From positions 1-20,685 of IMG/VR virus record IMGVR_UViG_3300042879_001533: a stretch of DNA of 20,685 nt. One strand, given 5' to 3'. The notes below the pieces were generated by a model, which saw nothing but the letters and a program-made list of their open reading frames with translations, had not been told where the DNA came from and ran no database searches. This stretch comes from a virus. Shown piece after piece: positions 3-18,612 of the stretch. How positions within the stretch are numbered: position 1 is the first letter of the stretch; each line of letters opens with the position of its first letter. The position numbers and the translations under genes were made by a program.

Positions 3-701
3 CAAAACCTTGAATATGTGATTGACTGCCTTCAGCCGTGTGCGATTCGTTGGGAACAGGAAGCCAAGCGCAAGCTATTTCGTTCAGACGAAATCGACCT
101 TTACATAGCGCACAACTTCAACGCGCTATTGCGTGGCGATTCCAAGGCGCAGGCGGAAGTTATCCGCACGTACTCTAACCTTGGCATCTATTCAGTCAAC
201 GAGTCACGCAACTTCCTTGACATGAACTATATCGGCAACGAAGGCAACAAGCGATTCATTGCCGGCAACATGATTGAGCTCAAGGAAGATATGATGTTCC
301 CTGCCGATGTGAAAGCGCAGGCCCGTGCGCCAAGGGAACCCGACCCGAACATGAATATCCCCGAACCGCCCGCCGTCAATGTGACGGTGCACCGCGTAGG
401 CTTGACGCAAGAGCAAGCGTATAGCATGGTGATTCCGACTATCACCCATGCCCAGCGCAAGGCAGAGCTTGCTATACCGCGACTTGAAAAGAAGCACGCG
501 AATTGCGCGGATACGCTTGAGGCTAAGATAGCGGAATTCAAGTTAGACTTGCTGGCGGAACTTGTCACCAATCTATCCCCAATCTTCCAAGCGTTCAACG
601 TTGACGCAGAGAAATTTACCCAATACGCCGCAGGTGCAGAAAGCTATGAATCCGTAGCCCAATGGCTTGCGAATGAGATAAGGAGCAATCCCAATGAGTA
701 A
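3..701 (+). CDS. phage portal protein, C-terminal part (left end outside window)
   Basis: The reading frame is open from base 3, so this is the end of a longer gene. A GTG at 18 lies inside the frame and is probably not the start. The first residues (Y-V-I-D-C-L-Q-P, then R-W-E-Q-E and K-L-F) and the following F-N-A-L-L-R-G-D and N-E-S-R-N-F-L match the C-terminal pattern of HK97-family portal proteins: the clip/stem helix with its conserved W-E-Q-E, then the G-x-x-S-x-N-E-x-R segment. Portals form the dodecameric ring at one capsid vertex through which DNA is packaged. The last ~130 residues (about bases 310-700) are a long hydrophilic, partly helical extension rich in A, E and K, longer than in the smallest portals. 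The gene ends overlapping the protease start. Family call is good; exact boundaries are unknown. Confidence 0.85.
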   Translation, partial: QNLEYVIDCLQPCAIRWEQEAKRKLFRSDEIDLYIAHNFNALLRGDSKAQAEVIRTYSNLGIYSVNESRNFLDMNYIGNEGNKRFIAGNMIELKEDMMFPADVKAQARAPREPDPNMNIPEPPAVNVTVHRVGLTQEQAYSMVIPTITHAQRKAELAIPRLEKKHANCADTLEAKIAEFKLDLLAELVTNLSPIFQAFNVDAEKFTQYAAGAESYESVAQWLANEIRSNPNE

Positions 702-1596
702 CACCACCCCGCTATGCTTTGCGCACCACATGGGATTGTACATGCTTGAACCGACGTTCGCGGCGAACCTTCAAACCATGATGCAGCGATTCCCGCGACA
801 GACGGATGAGGCATTCACGCCGGACAAGCTACAGCAGGACATGCTCGCACTCGAACCTATCAGCGAGTCACGCGGCATCTATGGCCTCACGTCTGCCGGT
901 ATCGCCATTATCCCCATTGTTGGCTTGATGACGAAGGGCGGCACCAAGTTTGGCACTTCTACCAATCAGGCCCGCCGTGCATTGCAGACGGCGGTTAATG
1001 ACCCAAGCGTCAAGGCTATCATGCTTCATTTCGACACCCCCGGCGGCAGCTTTGCGGGTAGCGATGAGTTTGCGAATGACGTTGCCAAGGCGGCCACTGT
1101 GAAGCCCCTAGCGGCCCATGCAGACGATTTGATAGCGAGCGGCGGCATGTATGTAGCAAGCCAAGCCCCGCGACTCACAGTCAACGCAGCGGGTGAGGCA
1201 GGCAGTATCGGCACCTATGCAGTAGTCGAGGATATGAGCGGCGCGGCGGAAATGGCGGGCGTGAAGGTGCACGTAATCCGTACCGGCGAATTCAAGGGTA
1301 TGGGAACTCCCGGCACGGAAATCACGGAACCGCAGTTGGCCCGCTTTCAACAGATGGTAAACAACGCCCAGACCTTCTTCAGCGCAGCCATTCAGCGCGG
1401 GCGCGGATTGTCGAAGCAACAGGTAGATGCCCTCGTGGCCGATGGTGGCGTATGGTTTGCGAAGGAAGCGAAAGCACGCGGATTGATTGATGCCGTTGAG
1501 TCTTATGAGATGGCACTTGACAAGCTGGCCTCCCGCATCAAAACCCCGCGACTTGCAGCAGCCCGCCGCGCACTTTCTATCCTAGAAAAAAAGTAG
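694..1596 (+). CDS. S49-family (SppA-like) serine protease, prohead maturation protease
   Basis: This is a 300-aa protein of the signal-peptide-peptidase A fold used by many phages to trim the capsid protein delta domain and scaffold during head maturation. The core is visible: D-T-P-G-G at 114-118, the nucleophile Ser149 in A-S-G-G-M-Y, and Lys201 in T-G-E-F-K-G. The Ser-Lys distance of 52 residues equals that of the Ser147/Lys199 dyad of Bacillus SppA. No signal peptide or membrane segment is evident, fitting a cytoplasmic prohead enzyme. The start at 694 has AAGGAG nine bases upstream and overlaps the portal stop by 8 nt, suggesting coupled translation. It lies directly before the capsid gene, the usual place. 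I see no separate scaffold gene; the capsid N-terminal region may do that job. Confidence 0.93.
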   Translation: MSNTTPLCFAHHMGLYMLEPTFAANLQTMMQRFPRQTDEAFTPDKLQQDMLALEPISESRGIYGLTSAGIAIIPIVGLMTKGGTKFGTSTNQARRALQTAVNDPSVKAIMLHFDTPGGSFAGSDEFANDVAKAATVKPLAAHADDLIASGGMYVASQAPRLTVNAAGEAGSIGTYAVVEDMSGAAEMAGVKVHVIRTGEFKGMGTPGTEITEPQLARFQQMVNNAQTFFSAAIQRGRGLSKQQVDALVADGGVWFAKEAKARGLIDAVESYEMALDKLASRIKTPRLAAARRALSILEKK

Positions 1597-1625
1597 TTGC
1601 ATTCTGTTGTGACTTGATATATATT
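1597..1625 (+). promoter_or_regulatory. weak candidate promoter before capsid leader
   Basis: TTGCAT (1597-1602) and TATATT (1620-1625) are separated by 17 bases directly after the protease stop codon. The -10 matches consensus at five of six positions but the -35 at only three. A second possible pair is TTGTGA (1607-1612) with TAGATA (1631-1636). A promoter here would let the capsid gene be transcribed more than the genes upstream. Low certainty. Confidence 0.3.
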
Positions 1626-1667
1626 TTCGCTAGATAACCGCAAGGGCGCGACCGCCGCAGCGAATAT
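1621..1667 (+). other. inverted repeat in capsid leader
   Basis: ATATT-tt-CGCT (1621-1631) can pair with AGCGAATAT (1659-1667). A small GGCG/CGCC hairpin with loop CGAC (1645-1656) sits inside. It forms the first half of the 221-nt non-coding leader of the capsid gene. Pairing was read by eye, not folded. Confidence 0.4.
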
Positions 1668-1727
1668 CTAACGACGATGTAGACGAAACAAACTAAATCA
1701 ACGGACCAAAACGCCGTAAGCGAACTT

Positions 1728-1790
1728 GCGCGTAAAGGTTTGGGTACGAGTATCTAATAACTCGCCACCCGAATTCTTTACGCGCTTTTT
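1728..1790 (+). terminator. long hairpin with U-tract 28 nt before the capsid start
   Basis: GCGCGTAAAG (1728-1737) is perfectly complementary to CTTTACGCGC (1776-1785). The stem continues inward with TTTGGGT/ACCCGAA (one G-U pair) and CGAGT/ACTCG closing on an 8-base loop. TTTTTGTTTT follows at once from 1786. This has the form of an intrinsic terminator, but its U-tract ends just before the capsid ribosome-binding site (AAAGGAAG, about 1806-1813). Full termination here would silence the capsid gene from upstream promoters, so it may instead be a leaky terminator, an attenuator or a stabilising 5' mRNA structure. Confidence 0.7.
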
Positions 1791-1817
1791 GTTTTGCGGC
1801 CCAGCAAAGGAAGCAAG

Positions 1818-3164
1818 ATGAAAAACTTTCTCCAGTACAGCATTCAGGACTTGGGGCGACTCAAGCAAGAAGCACTCTCCGCAATGCAGGCCATTCACAC
1901 GAAGGCAGATGCCGAAGGGCGCGAACTGACCGATGATGAGAATGCCGCGTTCCAGCAGCACGAATCGGACTTCAATCAGATTGATTCCGTAATCACCAGC
2001 CGTCAGGCCTCGCAGACCCGCGCCGCCAAGCTGGCGAGCTTCACTGCCTCGGCCCCAGCGCCCAGTGTTGCCACGAACCCCGGCACCGCGCCACGCGTAA
2101 CCGATGTAAAGGAATCTTTCGAAAGCGACCCCAACGGCGGCTTCCGTTCCCGTCAAGAATTCATGGCCGCGGTCATGCAGGCCGGTATCACCGGCAAGGT
2201 TACCGATGAGCGTTTGAAATATCGCGCCGCTGTAGGCTCCGACGAACAGTCCGGCAGCAACAATCAGTACGGCGGATTCACGGTGCCGGAAGGCTTCATG
2301 GGCGGCTTGATGATGGTTGATGCGGAGGTGGACCCGATTGCCGGTCGCACGACCAACATCCCCGTCTCCACCCCGACCATCAAAGTCAACGCCCGCACCG
2401 ACAAGAATCACACCACTTCCGTTACGGGTGGCCTTGTGGTGTCGCGTCGTAGCGAAGCGGCTACGGTTGACCCCAGCCGTATGAGCATGGAACAGATCAC
2501 CCTCACGGCGAACAGCCTCATGGGCCTGAGCTATGCGACTGAGGAGCTGCTTGCCGATTCCCCGCTGTCGTTTGCGGCTATCATCGCTAACGGCTTCGCG
2601 CAGGAAATGTCCAGCAAGATTCTCTATGAGCGCATCCACGGCACCGGCGCGGGTGAGATGGAAGGCATCCTGAATACCCCGGCCCTTGTCACCGTTTCGA
2701 AGGAAACTGGGCAGGCTGCTGACACGCTCAAGTTTGAGAACGTGGTCAAGATGTATGCTCGCCTCTGGGGTAAGAATCAGGGAGTGTGGTTGGCGAACCA
2801 TGAGACACTGCCGCAGCTTATGACCATGAACCAGAACGTGGGCACGGCTGGATTCCCGGCGTGGCAGACCTCGGCCCGCGAAGGCGAACCCAATCGCCTG
2901 CTTGGCCTTCCGATTTACTTCACTGAATACGCCTCGGCCCTCGGCGACGCTGGCGACCTCATGCTGTGCAACTGGTCGCAGTATCTCGAAATCACCCTTG
3001 GTGGCATCAACACGGCTGAGAGCGTGCATGTGCGCTTCGTGAACAACGAGCGTGCGTTCCGCGTGACCCTCCGCAACGATGGCCGTTCGTGGTGGCGTTC
3101 TGCGCTGACCCCGAAGAAGGGCGCAGCAACCCTTAGCCCGTTTGTGACGCTTGAAGCCCGATAA
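1818..3164 (+). CDS. HK97-fold major capsid protein
   Basis: This 448-aa protein builds the icosahedral head. Residues 1-~105 are charged and helix-forming (D-L-G-R-L-K-Q-E-A, then D-D-E-N-A-A-F), as in the delta domain that acts as internal scaffold and is removed by the protease. The HK97 core starts near residue 136 with R-A-A-V-G and the hallmark G-G-F-T-V-P-E at 152-158. Later come L-G-L-P-I-Y-F and the D-L-M-L-C-N-W-S-Q-Y segment typical of the C-terminal P/A domain. An in-frame TTG at 1794 would add eight residues, but ATG 1818 is preferred: it has AAAGGAAG just upstream and gives the usual M-K-N start. The long AT-rich leader upstream is unusual. Family assignment is very secure. Confidence 0.95.
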   Translation: MKNFLQYSIQDLGRLKQEALSAMQAIHTKADAEGRELTDDENAAFQQHESDFNQIDSVITSRQASQTRAAKLASFTASAPAPSVATNPGTAPRVTDVKESFESDPNGGFRSRQEFMAAVMQAGITGKVTDERLKYRAAVGSDEQSGSNNQYGGFTVPEGFMGGLMMVDAEVDPIAGRTTNIPVSTPTIKVNARTDKNHTTSVTGGLVVSRRSEAATVDPSRMSMEQITLTANSLMGLSYATEELLADSPLSFAAIIANGFAQEMSSKILYERIHGTGAGEMEGILNTPALVTVSKETGQAADTLKFENVVKMYARLWGKNQGVWLANHETLPQLMTMNQNVGTAGFPAWQTSAREGEPNRLLGLPIYFTEYASALGDAGDLMLCNWSQYLEITLGGINTAESVHVRFVNNERAFRVTLRNDGRSWWRSALTPKKGAATLSPFVTLEAR

Positions 3165-3200
3165 CCAAACCGCGCCGAAAGCGCATAGGAGATAAGCAAC

Positions 3201-3680
3201 ATGGCAGGTTCCATTCTCGACTCTGAAAAGATTAAGAGCGAATACAAAATCATGAACTACGACCACGACCCCGGCGGTACTTCCGCCACCGTGGTTAGCC
3301 CCGATGGTGGCACGACCAAGTACATCATCGACATGCGCGACTATACGCATGTGCTGTACCAGACCACGACCTCTGTTAGCGCGTCTAGCTCTGGCGTGAC
3401 GAAGCTGGAGATTGTCGGGTATACCGACTCCGCAGGTGCGGGCACGGCGTATGTGGTCAAGGACTCCGGCACGGTTGCGGCTGACGCTGTAGGCGATCAG
3501 GTGACTATCGAGTGCAACGCGCAGGAAGTGGCGCAGATTGGCACGGACAACGGCGTTGCCCTCCGCTACGTGACTGCCCGCATTACCTGCTCCAATGCTG
3601 GCGACGAAGCCCGCGTTGCGTTTGTGGGCAAGGCTGTGCGCCCGTATGGTGGCCTCACTCCCGATACCATCATTGCCTAA
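3201..3680 (+). CDS. unknown structural protein, probable capsid accessory
   Basis: The 159-aa product is not a family I can name. It is rich in V, T, S, G and D, with alternating beta-like stretches (K-Y-I-I-D-M-R, V-L-Y-Q-T-T-T, V-T-A-R-I-T-C) and no membrane or signal segment. It looks like a small secreted-free beta-sandwich. A strong ribosome-binding site (AGGAGA) sits seven bases before ATG 3201, 36 nt after the capsid stop, so it is likely made at high level together with the capsid. Position and composition suggest a head decoration or head-stabilising protein. The function is inferred from position only. Confidence 0.75.
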   Translation: MAGSILDSEKIKSEYKIMNYDHDPGGTSATVVSPDGGTTKYIIDMRDYTHVLYQTTTSVSASSSGVTKLEIVGYTDSAGAGTAYVVKDSGTVAADAVGDQVTIECNAQEVAQIGTDNGVALRYVTARITCSNAGDEARVAFVGKAVRPYGGLTPDTIIA

Positions 3681-3701
3681 CCTGAACTGAAATTCTAACT
3701 A

Positions 3702-3726
3702 GCCGGGTGGGGTAACCTCACCCGGC
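3702..3726 (+). other. intergenic hairpin before decoration-like gene
   Basis: GCCGGGTG (3702-3709) pairs perfectly with CACCCGGC (3719-3726) around a 9-base loop. There is no U-tract, so it is not a standard terminator. It ends five bases before the AGGAGA ribosome-binding site of the gene at 3741. It could stabilise or process the head-gene mRNA. Confidence 0.6.
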
Positions 3727-3740
3727 AGTAGGAGAAACGA

Positions 3741-4502
3741 ATGAGCGAATACAACGCTTTCAAGATAGAGGGCTACCAGTCCCCGAATGGCGCGATTGGC
3801 ACGAAGGAAACTACCTACGGCCTTTCCTCTTCCGTTTGGCGATGGTTTCCGGTCAACGAGATTCTGCAAGACCCCGGCCTTGGCTACATTTTGCGCGATG
3901 ACTTCTTCGCCACCGACAACACCAATAACTATACGCTTGTCACCGATGCTGGCGGCACGGCTGCGGTTGTTGATTTGCAGGGTGGTATTCTGCGCATTAC
4001 CAACAATGGCACGGACAACGATGAATCCTACCTTTCCACCAAGGCGGAGAACTGGATCTTCAGCGACCGGCCTATTGCCTTTGAGGCAGAAGTCACGGCG
4101 ACCGGCGACCATAACTTTATCCTCGGCCTGAGCGATACCGTAGGTGCGAACTTCCTTCAGGACAGCGAAGCAGGCCCGGCGGCAAGCTATGACGGCGCTG
4201 TGTTCTTCGTGGATGGTGGCTCATATTGGAAATTTGAAACCTCCAACGCTGGCACGCAGGTAACGAATACGACCTTCACGCCGTACACGTCTGGCTCGTC
4301 TATCCGCCTTGGATTCATCTTCGATCCGAACGATGGTACCACGGGCAAGATTACGCCGTTCGTAAATGGCGTTGCTGGCACCACGCATAGCATTACGCTT
4401 TCCGGCCTTGAAGAGATGCACGTGGTTTTCGGCGCAAAGAACAAGACCGGCGCGGCTGCTGTGTTTGATGTGGACTACTTCCAGATTGCGAAGATCCGCT
4501 AA
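3741..4502 (+). CDS. concanavalin-like/LamG-like probable capsid decoration protein
   Basis: This is a 253-aa protein. Residues 1-~50 form a short N-terminal arm, followed by a jelly-roll-like domain that starts with R-D-D-F-F-A-T-D-N. The alternating strands, the D-N-D-E-S-Y-L-S-T segment, V-F-F-V-D-G-G-S-Y-W, and the closing F-D-V-D-Y-F-Q-I-A-K-I-R resemble the concanavalin A-like glucanase/lectin fold seen in phage head decoration proteins. Such domains may bind glycans on cells or mucus, or simply cement capsomers. AGGAGA precedes ATG 3741. The stop overlaps the next start as TAATG, so the two are probably co-translated. Fold call is moderate; the head role is inferred from its place between capsid and connector. 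Confidence 0.7.
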   Translation: MSEYNAFKIEGYQSPNGAIGTKETTYGLSSSVWRWFPVNEILQDPGLGYILRDDFFATDNTNNYTLVTDAGGTAAVVDLQGGILRITNNGTDNDESYLSTKAENWIFSDRPIAFEAEVTATGDHNFILGLSDTVGANFLQDSEAGPAASYDGAVFFVDGGSYWKFETSNAGTQVTNTTFTPYTSGSSIRLGFIFDPNDGTTGKITPFVNGVAGTTHSITLSGLEEMHVVFGAKNKTGAAAVFDVDYFQIAKIR

Positions 4503-4933
4503 TGAATAACGTAGCACGCTCTGCACAATTCACTAGAACCCTTGTAGCGAGTGCTGCAAGGACAACGACCGGTGTTAGCGATGCGACCTACATTCAGGAC
4601 GCGCCAAACGGTATCGTCTTTGTGTTGGGCGTTACGGCGGCTGCTACAGCGGCGGGCGATACGCTTGATGTGAAGATTCAGACCACGCTTGATGGCTCGA
4701 CTTGGACTGACGTGGTGGCGTTCACTCAGGTGCTTGGCAATGGTGGCGCAAAGGTGCATATCGCCAAGATTACCGCAAGCGGCACGCAGGCCATGTTTGA
4801 GAATGGCGCAAGTCTAAGCGCGGGAAGCGTGCGTAATATTCTTGGCGACACTTATCGGGCGGCATGGTCTATCACCGATGCCACTACGGATGATGCCTCG
4901 TTTACCTTTAGTGTCAATGCGATTGTGTGCTAA
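4502..4933 (+). CDS. unknown structural protein, probable head accessory
   Basis: The 143-aa product is rich in A, T and V with a beta-strand pattern (G-I-V-F-V-L-G-V-T, L-D-V-K-I-Q-T-T-L-D-G-S-T-W). The L-D-V-K-I-Q-T-T-x-D-G-x-x-W motif, followed later by Y-R-A-A-W-S-I and a strand ending in V-N-A-I-V-C, recurs in small beta-sandwich phage structural proteins. I cannot give it a family name. It overlaps its upstream neighbour (TAATG at 4500-4504) and the connector downstream (TAATG at 4931-4935), with no strong own ribosome-binding site, so re-initiation is likely. With the two genes before it, it makes an accessory head group. Confidence 0.65.
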   Translation: MNNVARSAQFTRTLVASAARTTTGVSDATYIQDAPNGIVFVLGVTAAATAAGDTLDVKIQTTLDGSTWTDVVAFTQVLGNGGAKVHIAKITASGTQAMFENGASLSAGSVRNILGDTYRAAWSITDATTDDASFTFSVNAIVC

Positions 4934-18372: not shown

Positions 18373-18612
18373 ATGACAGTAGACGGATGGTTGAAGGCGT
18401 GGCAAGATGCCGAAACGGTGCACGATGCCGACGGCATGAGTACCGAAGAAATCGCAGCCCTTTGGAATACAAGCCTATGCACGGCACAGCGGCGGATTCG
18501 CAAACTGGTGGCTGATGGGTTTGCCAAGTTTGCAGGCTACAGAACAGAAAAGTCTTTGATAGGTGTACCTAAAAAGGTGCCGGTGTTCACACTAACAGAC
18601 AGCAAAGGATAA
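18373..18612 (+). CDS. small helix-turn-helix DNA-binding protein
   Basis: The 79-aa product has a likely winged helix-turn-helix at residues 22-50: M-S-T-E-E-I-A-A-L-W-N-T-S-L-C-T-A-Q-R-R-I. The sequence R-K-L-V-A-D-G-F-A-K follows, then a possible wing (K-K-V-P-V-F-T-L). The Arg-rich second helix would face DNA. The gene lies 2 nt after the phosphoesterase stop, with GAGGAA overlapping that stop. Because a promoter and paired repeats lie a few hundred bases downstream, it could regulate the small-gene operon, but this is a guess from position. Confidence 0.75.
   Translation: MTVDGWLKAWQDAETVHDADGMSTEEIAALWNTSLCTAQRRIRKLVADGFAKFAGYRTEKSLIGVPKKVPVFTLTDSKG

Follow-up and report, generated by a model that had tools for sequence, protein, structure and literature searches.

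The stretch of DNA analyzed here (the window, a 20.7-kb virus record) carries directly upstream of its major capsid gene a structured gap that is probably the 5′ leader of the capsid mRNA, built as a promoter-driven attenuator with an antiterminator switch that a trans-acting factor probably operates. Judged by sequence comparison, the leader appears to represent a widespread class that lies upstream of the capsid gene in uncultured tailed phages related to this one and for which we found no description. Capsid protein is needed in far more copies than portal and protease, and in tailed phages with one long late operon the route to this excess is often unclear. A separate promoter and RNA switch on the capsid gene alone would explain it, in a form open to testing, across a large group of uncultured phages, and the leader would be a new RNA class that points to an RNA-binding factor.

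The head module of the window reads portal (3′ part), S49-type head maturation protease, 221-nt gap, HK97-type capsid, 159-aa protein, and then connector and tail genes (Table 1). The best named relative of the capsid is only about 36% identical. One contig (L001) is a near copy of the window, identical over positions 1297–4545 (3.25 kb, comprising the protease 3′ end, the leader, the capsid and the following genes) and clearly diverged on both sides, a pattern that reads as a recent exchange of the head module. Because of this exchange, the identity of the two leaders is uninformative on constraint, and we rejected it as a sign of constraint since the whole block is identical. The 159-aa protein (3201–3680), encoded directly 3′ of the capsid, is conserved in every leader-bearing contig that was checked and matches nothing in PHROG or Pfam. 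It is predicted to be mostly beta (pLDDT 85), has weak PDB matches to viral jelly-roll and lectin folds (TM about 0.4), and is perhaps a head decoration protein. As a candidate leader-binding factor it was set aside, the mostly beta fold being closer to a decoration protein than to an RNA binder. Separately, an open frame of 550 codons lies antisense to the capsid gene (1698–3350, minus strand); such antisense frames recur in relatives and are most likely an artefact of codon usage. A 79-aa protein at 18373–18612 resembles a winged-helix regulator by eye, has no PHROG match, and no evidence ties it to the leader.

Table 1. Positions of the leader elements and neighboring genes in the window.
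Feature	Position	Strand	Basis or remark
S49-type head maturation protease	694–1596		stop codon 1594–1596
Pre-capsid gap	1597–1817		3′ of protease stop; capsid ATG at 1818
Sigma70-type promoter, weak, TTGCAT-17-TATATT	1597–1625	+	8/12; scored by hand; predicted
P1 domain, nested 5′ hairpin	1620–1681	+	fold of −23.5 kcal/mol
P1 apical stem-loop, GGCG-CGAC-CGCC	1645–1656	+	apical helix kept in five family types, one doubly changed pair
A-rich unpaired linker	1682–1700	+	alignment and centroid folds
ACGGACCAAAACGCCGU, ACGG...CCGU, possible small helix competing with P2	1701–1717	+	in all five types
P2 small hairpin, GC-(C)-GUAAG-CGAA-CUUGC-GC, putative antiterminator	1713–1731	+	−5.7 kcal/mol
Putative intrinsic terminator hairpin (attenuator), 11+7+5 pairs	1728–1785	+	−31.6 kcal/mol
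U-tract TTTTTGTTTT (= UUUUUGUUUU), 10 nt, U-rich	1786–1795	+	present in all five family types
Capsid ribosome-binding site, AAGGAAG	about 1807–1813	+	by inspection
Major capsid gene, HK97 type, controlled gene	1818–3164	+	Pfam PF05065, E 1.4e-34; PHROG 10 major head protein

The original prediction, made from the window alone, described a gap with two inverted repeats before the capsid gene, and folding confirmed it: positions 1597–1830 fold with −79.4 kcal/mol compared to −53.9 ± 3.9 kcal/mol for dinucleotide shuffles (z −6.5, 0/200). Most of the signal comes from the 3′ half of the leader (z −7.0), while the 5′ half is less extreme (z −2.9). The first repeat corresponds to nested helices within 1620–1680. 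The second had been described as 10 bp extended by 7 and 5 more, which was right to within one pair, and the U-tract does end just before the capsid ribosome-binding site as claimed. When the U-tract is added to the terminator hairpin, the extended fold comes to −45.8 kcal/mol. P2 uses positions 1728–1731, the foot of the terminator stem, for its 3′ strand, and a scan found the same relation in relatives. P2 of the window is small compared to the terminator (−5.7 vs −31.6 kcal/mol) and the two overlap by only about 4 nt; the ACGG...CCGU helix is weak by itself (−2.7 kcal/mol). A longest-repeat test on the window leader was at chance level (p 0.71), and for this reason the presence of two copies of one loop is no more than suggestive in the window itself. 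A simple terminator scan did not list the 1728–1785 hairpin because its bulges and loop do not fit the pattern, pattern scans did not list the promoter at 1597–1625, and promoter and terminator counts by pattern scan across the whole window were at chance level. Because the scans list neither element, we built the case on the fold z-score and on comparative evidence.

Informative relatives of the leader were found via the protease (L006, L007, L008, identical to L009, and L014, identical to L015), giving a window family of five distinct sequences: the window and the L006, L007, L008 and L014 types. These four have proteases 57–68% identical and capsids 53–59% identical to those of the window, and in the same gap all four carry ACGG...CCGU(U)AAG[C/A]GAACUU, a long hairpin, a U-tract and a ribosome-binding site. 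When the five types are aligned contiguously, the ten pairs at the base of the terminator are standard in 50 of 50 cells, and four of the ten are changed on both sides (1/500 shuffles), with slid alignments at most 70% paired. Compensatory changes in homologous leaders, whose absence had been set beforehand as a refuting test, are thus found in the terminator. Across P1 and P2, 88% of cells are paired and the only doubly changed pair lies in P1, in a block alignment that was assembled by hand around the structure and so favors it. The apical loops of the two hairpins vary together, reading CGAC/CGAA in four types and AGAC/AGAA in L007, a joint change that is suggestive. A pattern search with the family motif matched 31 contigs, among which only the five known types were real and the others were without hairpin and U-tract; a search of named phages for the leader by nucleotide similarity found none.

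To extend the comparison, about 80 distinct capsid leaders were collected using the capsid and the 159-aa protein that follows it, and in most of them the gap before the capsid is 100–450 nt. Among 75 leaders the median fold z was −4.3, compared to −0.6 in capsid-coding segments, and z was below −2 in 61 of 75 leaders vs 14 of 78 coding segments. In the best-conserved subset (L101, L102, L108, L112, L116, L119, L126, L128, L130, L139, L141, L143, L147, L156 and L162), each leader holds at least one and up to three copies, most often two or three, of a bulged-A hairpin of the form NNNN-A-CGC-NNNN-GCG-NNNN. The motif ACGCN3-5GCGG occurs at 2.24/kb in the 400 nt before the capsid and at 0.30/kb elsewhere (7-fold), and the base preceding CGCN4GCG is A in 52 of 64 leader matches vs 71 of 391 elsewhere. 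Pairing in the lower stem on either side, unselected because this stem lay outside the search pattern, reaches.83/.67/.58/.71 in leaders vs.30/.24/.43/.39 elsewhere, with 33 doubly changed cells (0/500 shuffles). The upper stems are also compensated (CCG/CGG, GGC/GCC, CGU/ACG, CCC/GGG), in a comparison for which the scan itself required pairing. Since the bulged-A hairpins of six long contigs sit at the capsid leader, we favor capsid-specific control; elsewhere in these contigs there are a few isolated matches inside ORFs, and a regulon of such hairpins across the phage was rejected.

These repeated elements could alternatively be DNA operators, CGC-N4-GCG half-palindromes read by a transcription regulator and not by way of RNA, and indeed they lie near a promoter and at a nearly constant distance from each other (P1 and P2 are 48 nt apart in many relatives). 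We consider this highly improbable because the matches are strand-specific (55 vs 5 on the opposite strand), the bulged A is solely on the 5′ side, and one strand is common to the terminator and ribosome-binding-site helices and covaries across its alternative partners.

Other leaders repeat different loops but follow the same logic. Of 28 leaders subjected to the longest-repeat test, L086, L094, L087, L042 and L020 gave significant results and L093 and L092 weaker ones, with p values uncorrected for the number of leaders tested. In L086 (p 0.003) the loop CAGAGUU occurs twice and its second copy overlaps the terminator; CAGAGC occurs twice in L094, CGCAGAG twice in both L105 and L115, and CACGCCACGGCGG twice in L042. 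The repeats of L087 and L020 gave p 0.003 and 0.007, respectively. In the 123-nt pre-capsid gap of L020, the unit AGGCGGCGAA...GCTGGAGA is present twice and may be a different repeated RNA domain. Among 294 genomes drawn evenly from the Planctomycetota, the phylum of L042, 13 encode related capsids, the closest (L243, 56% identical) with the repeat ACGCGGAGCCG before the capsid. Two further members, L244 and L245, have GCACCG-A-GGC-CGN-GCC-CGGUGC hairpins before the capsid and are possibly a further branch of the leader class; their 300 nt upstream of the capsid hold several hairpins of the GGC-CGU-GCC type, one with a bulged A and a six-pair lower stem. These sequences hint that part of the group infects Planctomycetota, which need not hold for the window. 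A search of eight host genomes with the class covariance model (R1) gave no match.

The putative switch was examined in 14 contiguous leaders (A12), in which the P2 3′ strand is also the terminator 5′ arm. P2 is 99% paired with three doubly changed pairs, the terminator is 100% paired with six, and both covariation scores lie above those of all 500 shuffles. Single columns covary with two partners: the partner of GAUG is CAUU in P2 and either CAUCC or UAUCC in the terminator, and in other A12 members GACG has the partners CGUU and CGUYC, respectively. A third hairpin, P3, lies some 50–65 nt before the ATG in relatives and has the form CC-A-CGC-NNNN-GCG-GG, its CC belonging to a CUCC/CUUCC strand that pairs alternatively with the Shine-Dalgarno. 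The stem hiding the Shine-Dalgarno covaries as well (GAUCUUCC/GGAAGAUC, GAUCUACC/GGUAGAUC, GAUCAUCC/GGAUGAUU, with further versions CACCCUCC/GGAGGGUG and GACCCUCC/GGAGGGUU). Because formation of the hairpins would oppose both the terminator and the block of the ribosome-binding site, the formed hairpin would be the ON state of both.

The window shares with the class its position between S49 protease and capsid, the placement of the promoter at the stop codon and the mutual exclusion of P2 and terminator, while it differs from the best-conserved subset in having neither P3 nor a bulged A in its own hairpins. R1 matched neither the window leader, at E up to 1, nor the window family. When a model of the window family (R2) was searched over 539 kb on both strands, its seven best non-family matches (L110, L112, L211, L222, L097, L163 and L171; E 0.0014 to 2.7) were all capsid leaders in the correct orientation, the bridging leaders L110 and L112 matching at E 0.0014–0.0016. 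R1 and R2 both detect L110, L112, L211 and L222, with part of the R2 cross-match signal being a generic hairpin plus U-tract. We conclude, with moderate support, that the window appears to be a divergent branch of the capsid-leader class.

The weak promoter that the original prediction placed at the start of the gap stands as a weak copy of a site that is near consensus in relatives. L006, L008 and L014 have TTGACA and a near-consensus sigma70 site (10–11/12) with a spacing of 17 or 18 nt at the protease stop, and L007 likewise has TTGACA there. In the leaders of relatives, promoter-like sites occur at 1.82/kb, compared to 0.18/kb elsewhere (10-fold), often at the upstream stop codon.

From this arrangement we infer an active promoter, termination, a default state and a factor acting in trans, which would work together as follows. 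Transcription would start at the sigma70-type promoter at the protease stop; by default the 1728–1785 hairpin would form, and transcription would stop at the U-tract after about 160 nt. P2, when formed or held, would take the 5′ foot of the terminator stem, such that the base of the terminator next to the U-tract could not close and polymerase would enter the capsid gene. P1, with its similar apical loop, is probably a recruiting site of the same factor. In many relatives, formation of P3 would also free the Shine-Dalgarno, so that one signal would increase transcription and translation together. That the terminator is controlled, by attenuation or antitermination, had been proposed from the window alone, and the proposal is supported by the recurrence of the leader before divergent capsids, the compensatory changes, and the promoter in the same place. 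Since what the leader-bearing contigs have in common is mainly virion genes, the leading candidates for the factor are a head protein, implying autogenous control, or a host protein. There is a small chance that a head protein, possibly the capsid itself, binds the hairpins of its own leader and switches on both transcription (P2/terminator) and translation (P3/Shine-Dalgarno stem); such an RNA circuit would reinforce itself and form a counterpart of the MS2 operator among HK97-type phages, its loops and stems differing in type from one phage group to another.

Three further explanations bear on the same observations. Late control like that at lambda pR′/tR′, in which the terminator about 160 nt on is overcome by a Q-like protein that loads at promoter DNA and RNA structure matters little, would account for the enrichment of promoters at the gap start and has the same promoter-terminator spacing before late genes. 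We nevertheless regard it as unlikely: the stretch from promoter to terminator contains repeated, covarying RNA hairpins, and P3 sits past the terminator, at the ribosome-binding site; a DNA-loading Q would need neither. A stand-alone small RNA gene, acting in trans and placed before the capsid by chance, seems to us quite unlikely, even though the promoter and terminator delimit an RNA of about 160 nt and its structure is conserved, because the pre-capsid position is kept in all relatives despite sequence divergence, P2 is built to exclude the terminator, and P3 and the ribosome-binding-site stem are downstream of it. Finally, the leader could stabilize or process the mRNA, with the long hairpin as a shield for the 5′ end of the abundant capsid mRNA and with no more than leaky termination. 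The very stable extended fold just before the ribosome-binding site and the need for capsid in excess over protease would suit such a role, which we hold to be very doubtful given that all members of the window family retain the U-tract and that relatives conserve both alternative structures, which would be superfluous for a mere stabilizer. We therefore retain the attenuator with an antiterminator switch as the preferred reading.

The original prediction also suggested an undescribed class of structured RNA at capsid genes, which is supported by the recurrence of the leader with compensatory changes and by its lack of a match in Rfam. Searches of Rfam 15 with the window and 16 relatives gave no match at the gathering score, the sub-threshold matches (E 0.016–0.27) being only to microRNA models and one plasmid pseudoknot. 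Full-text searches gave no account of an RNA class at the capsid leaders of tailed phages, and capsid genes go unmentioned in two large surveys of structured RNAs; novelty is not proven, because most subscription papers and bioRxiv were outside the literature searched.

To our knowledge, the logic of dual-hairpin antitermination is so far known only from ANTAR-controlled bacterial genes. The ANTAR dual-hairpin antiterminators include those of the eutP, nasF and amiE leaders (PMC3369931, PMC8934654); their targets have loops of six nucleotides in which the first is A and the fourth is G (PMC3369931), and in eut leaders a linker of 5–12 nt separates the hairpins (PMC3369931, PMC8934654). The window leader likewise has two small hairpins with similar loops upstream of a terminator, the second overlapping its 5′ arm, and binding would favor read-through. 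In contrast to ANTAR targets, the loops of the window, taken as hexaloops, have the sequences GCGACC and GCGAAC and fail the A1/G4 rule, the linker is about 56 nt (1656 to 1713), the controlled gene is a phage capsid gene, and relatives have a third hairpin at the ribosome-binding site. ANTAR membership was rejected because the loop and linker rules fail. No ANTAR-domain protein (PF03861) was found on 16 contigs, which are mostly fragments, and such a protein may come from the host.

Among phage systems, the lambda late leader is defined by pR′, the 6S RNA, tR′ and the Q protein. As in lambda, a promoter is followed by a leader of ∼160–200 nt and a terminator before late genes; unlike in lambda, the leader described here has conserved, covarying RNA hairpins that are mutually exclusive with the terminator, and it precedes the capsid gene and not the whole late operon. 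The put RNA of HK022 consists of two neighboring stem-loops, a module of ∼70 nt downstream of an early promoter, and acts on RNA polymerase to suppress distant terminators without other factors (PMC9378689). Two stem-loops soon after a phage promoter and antitermination by nascent RNA are common to both, whereas here the hairpins are ∼56 nt apart and the second overlaps the very next terminator. The MS2/R17 coat-protein operator has a short upper stem, a tetraloop with the sequence ANYA and a bulged A on the 5′ side. The hairpin of the relatives resembles it in the short upper stem, tetraloop, single 5′-side bulged A and a copy at a phage ribosome-binding site. The window's own hairpins differ from the operator in lacking the bulged A, and the relatives differ in having loops that are mostly YNCG or GNNA, two to three copies, and a link to a terminator. 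Moreover, these are tailed DNA phages with an HK97-type capsid, and formation of the hairpin would open, rather than close, the ribosome-binding site.
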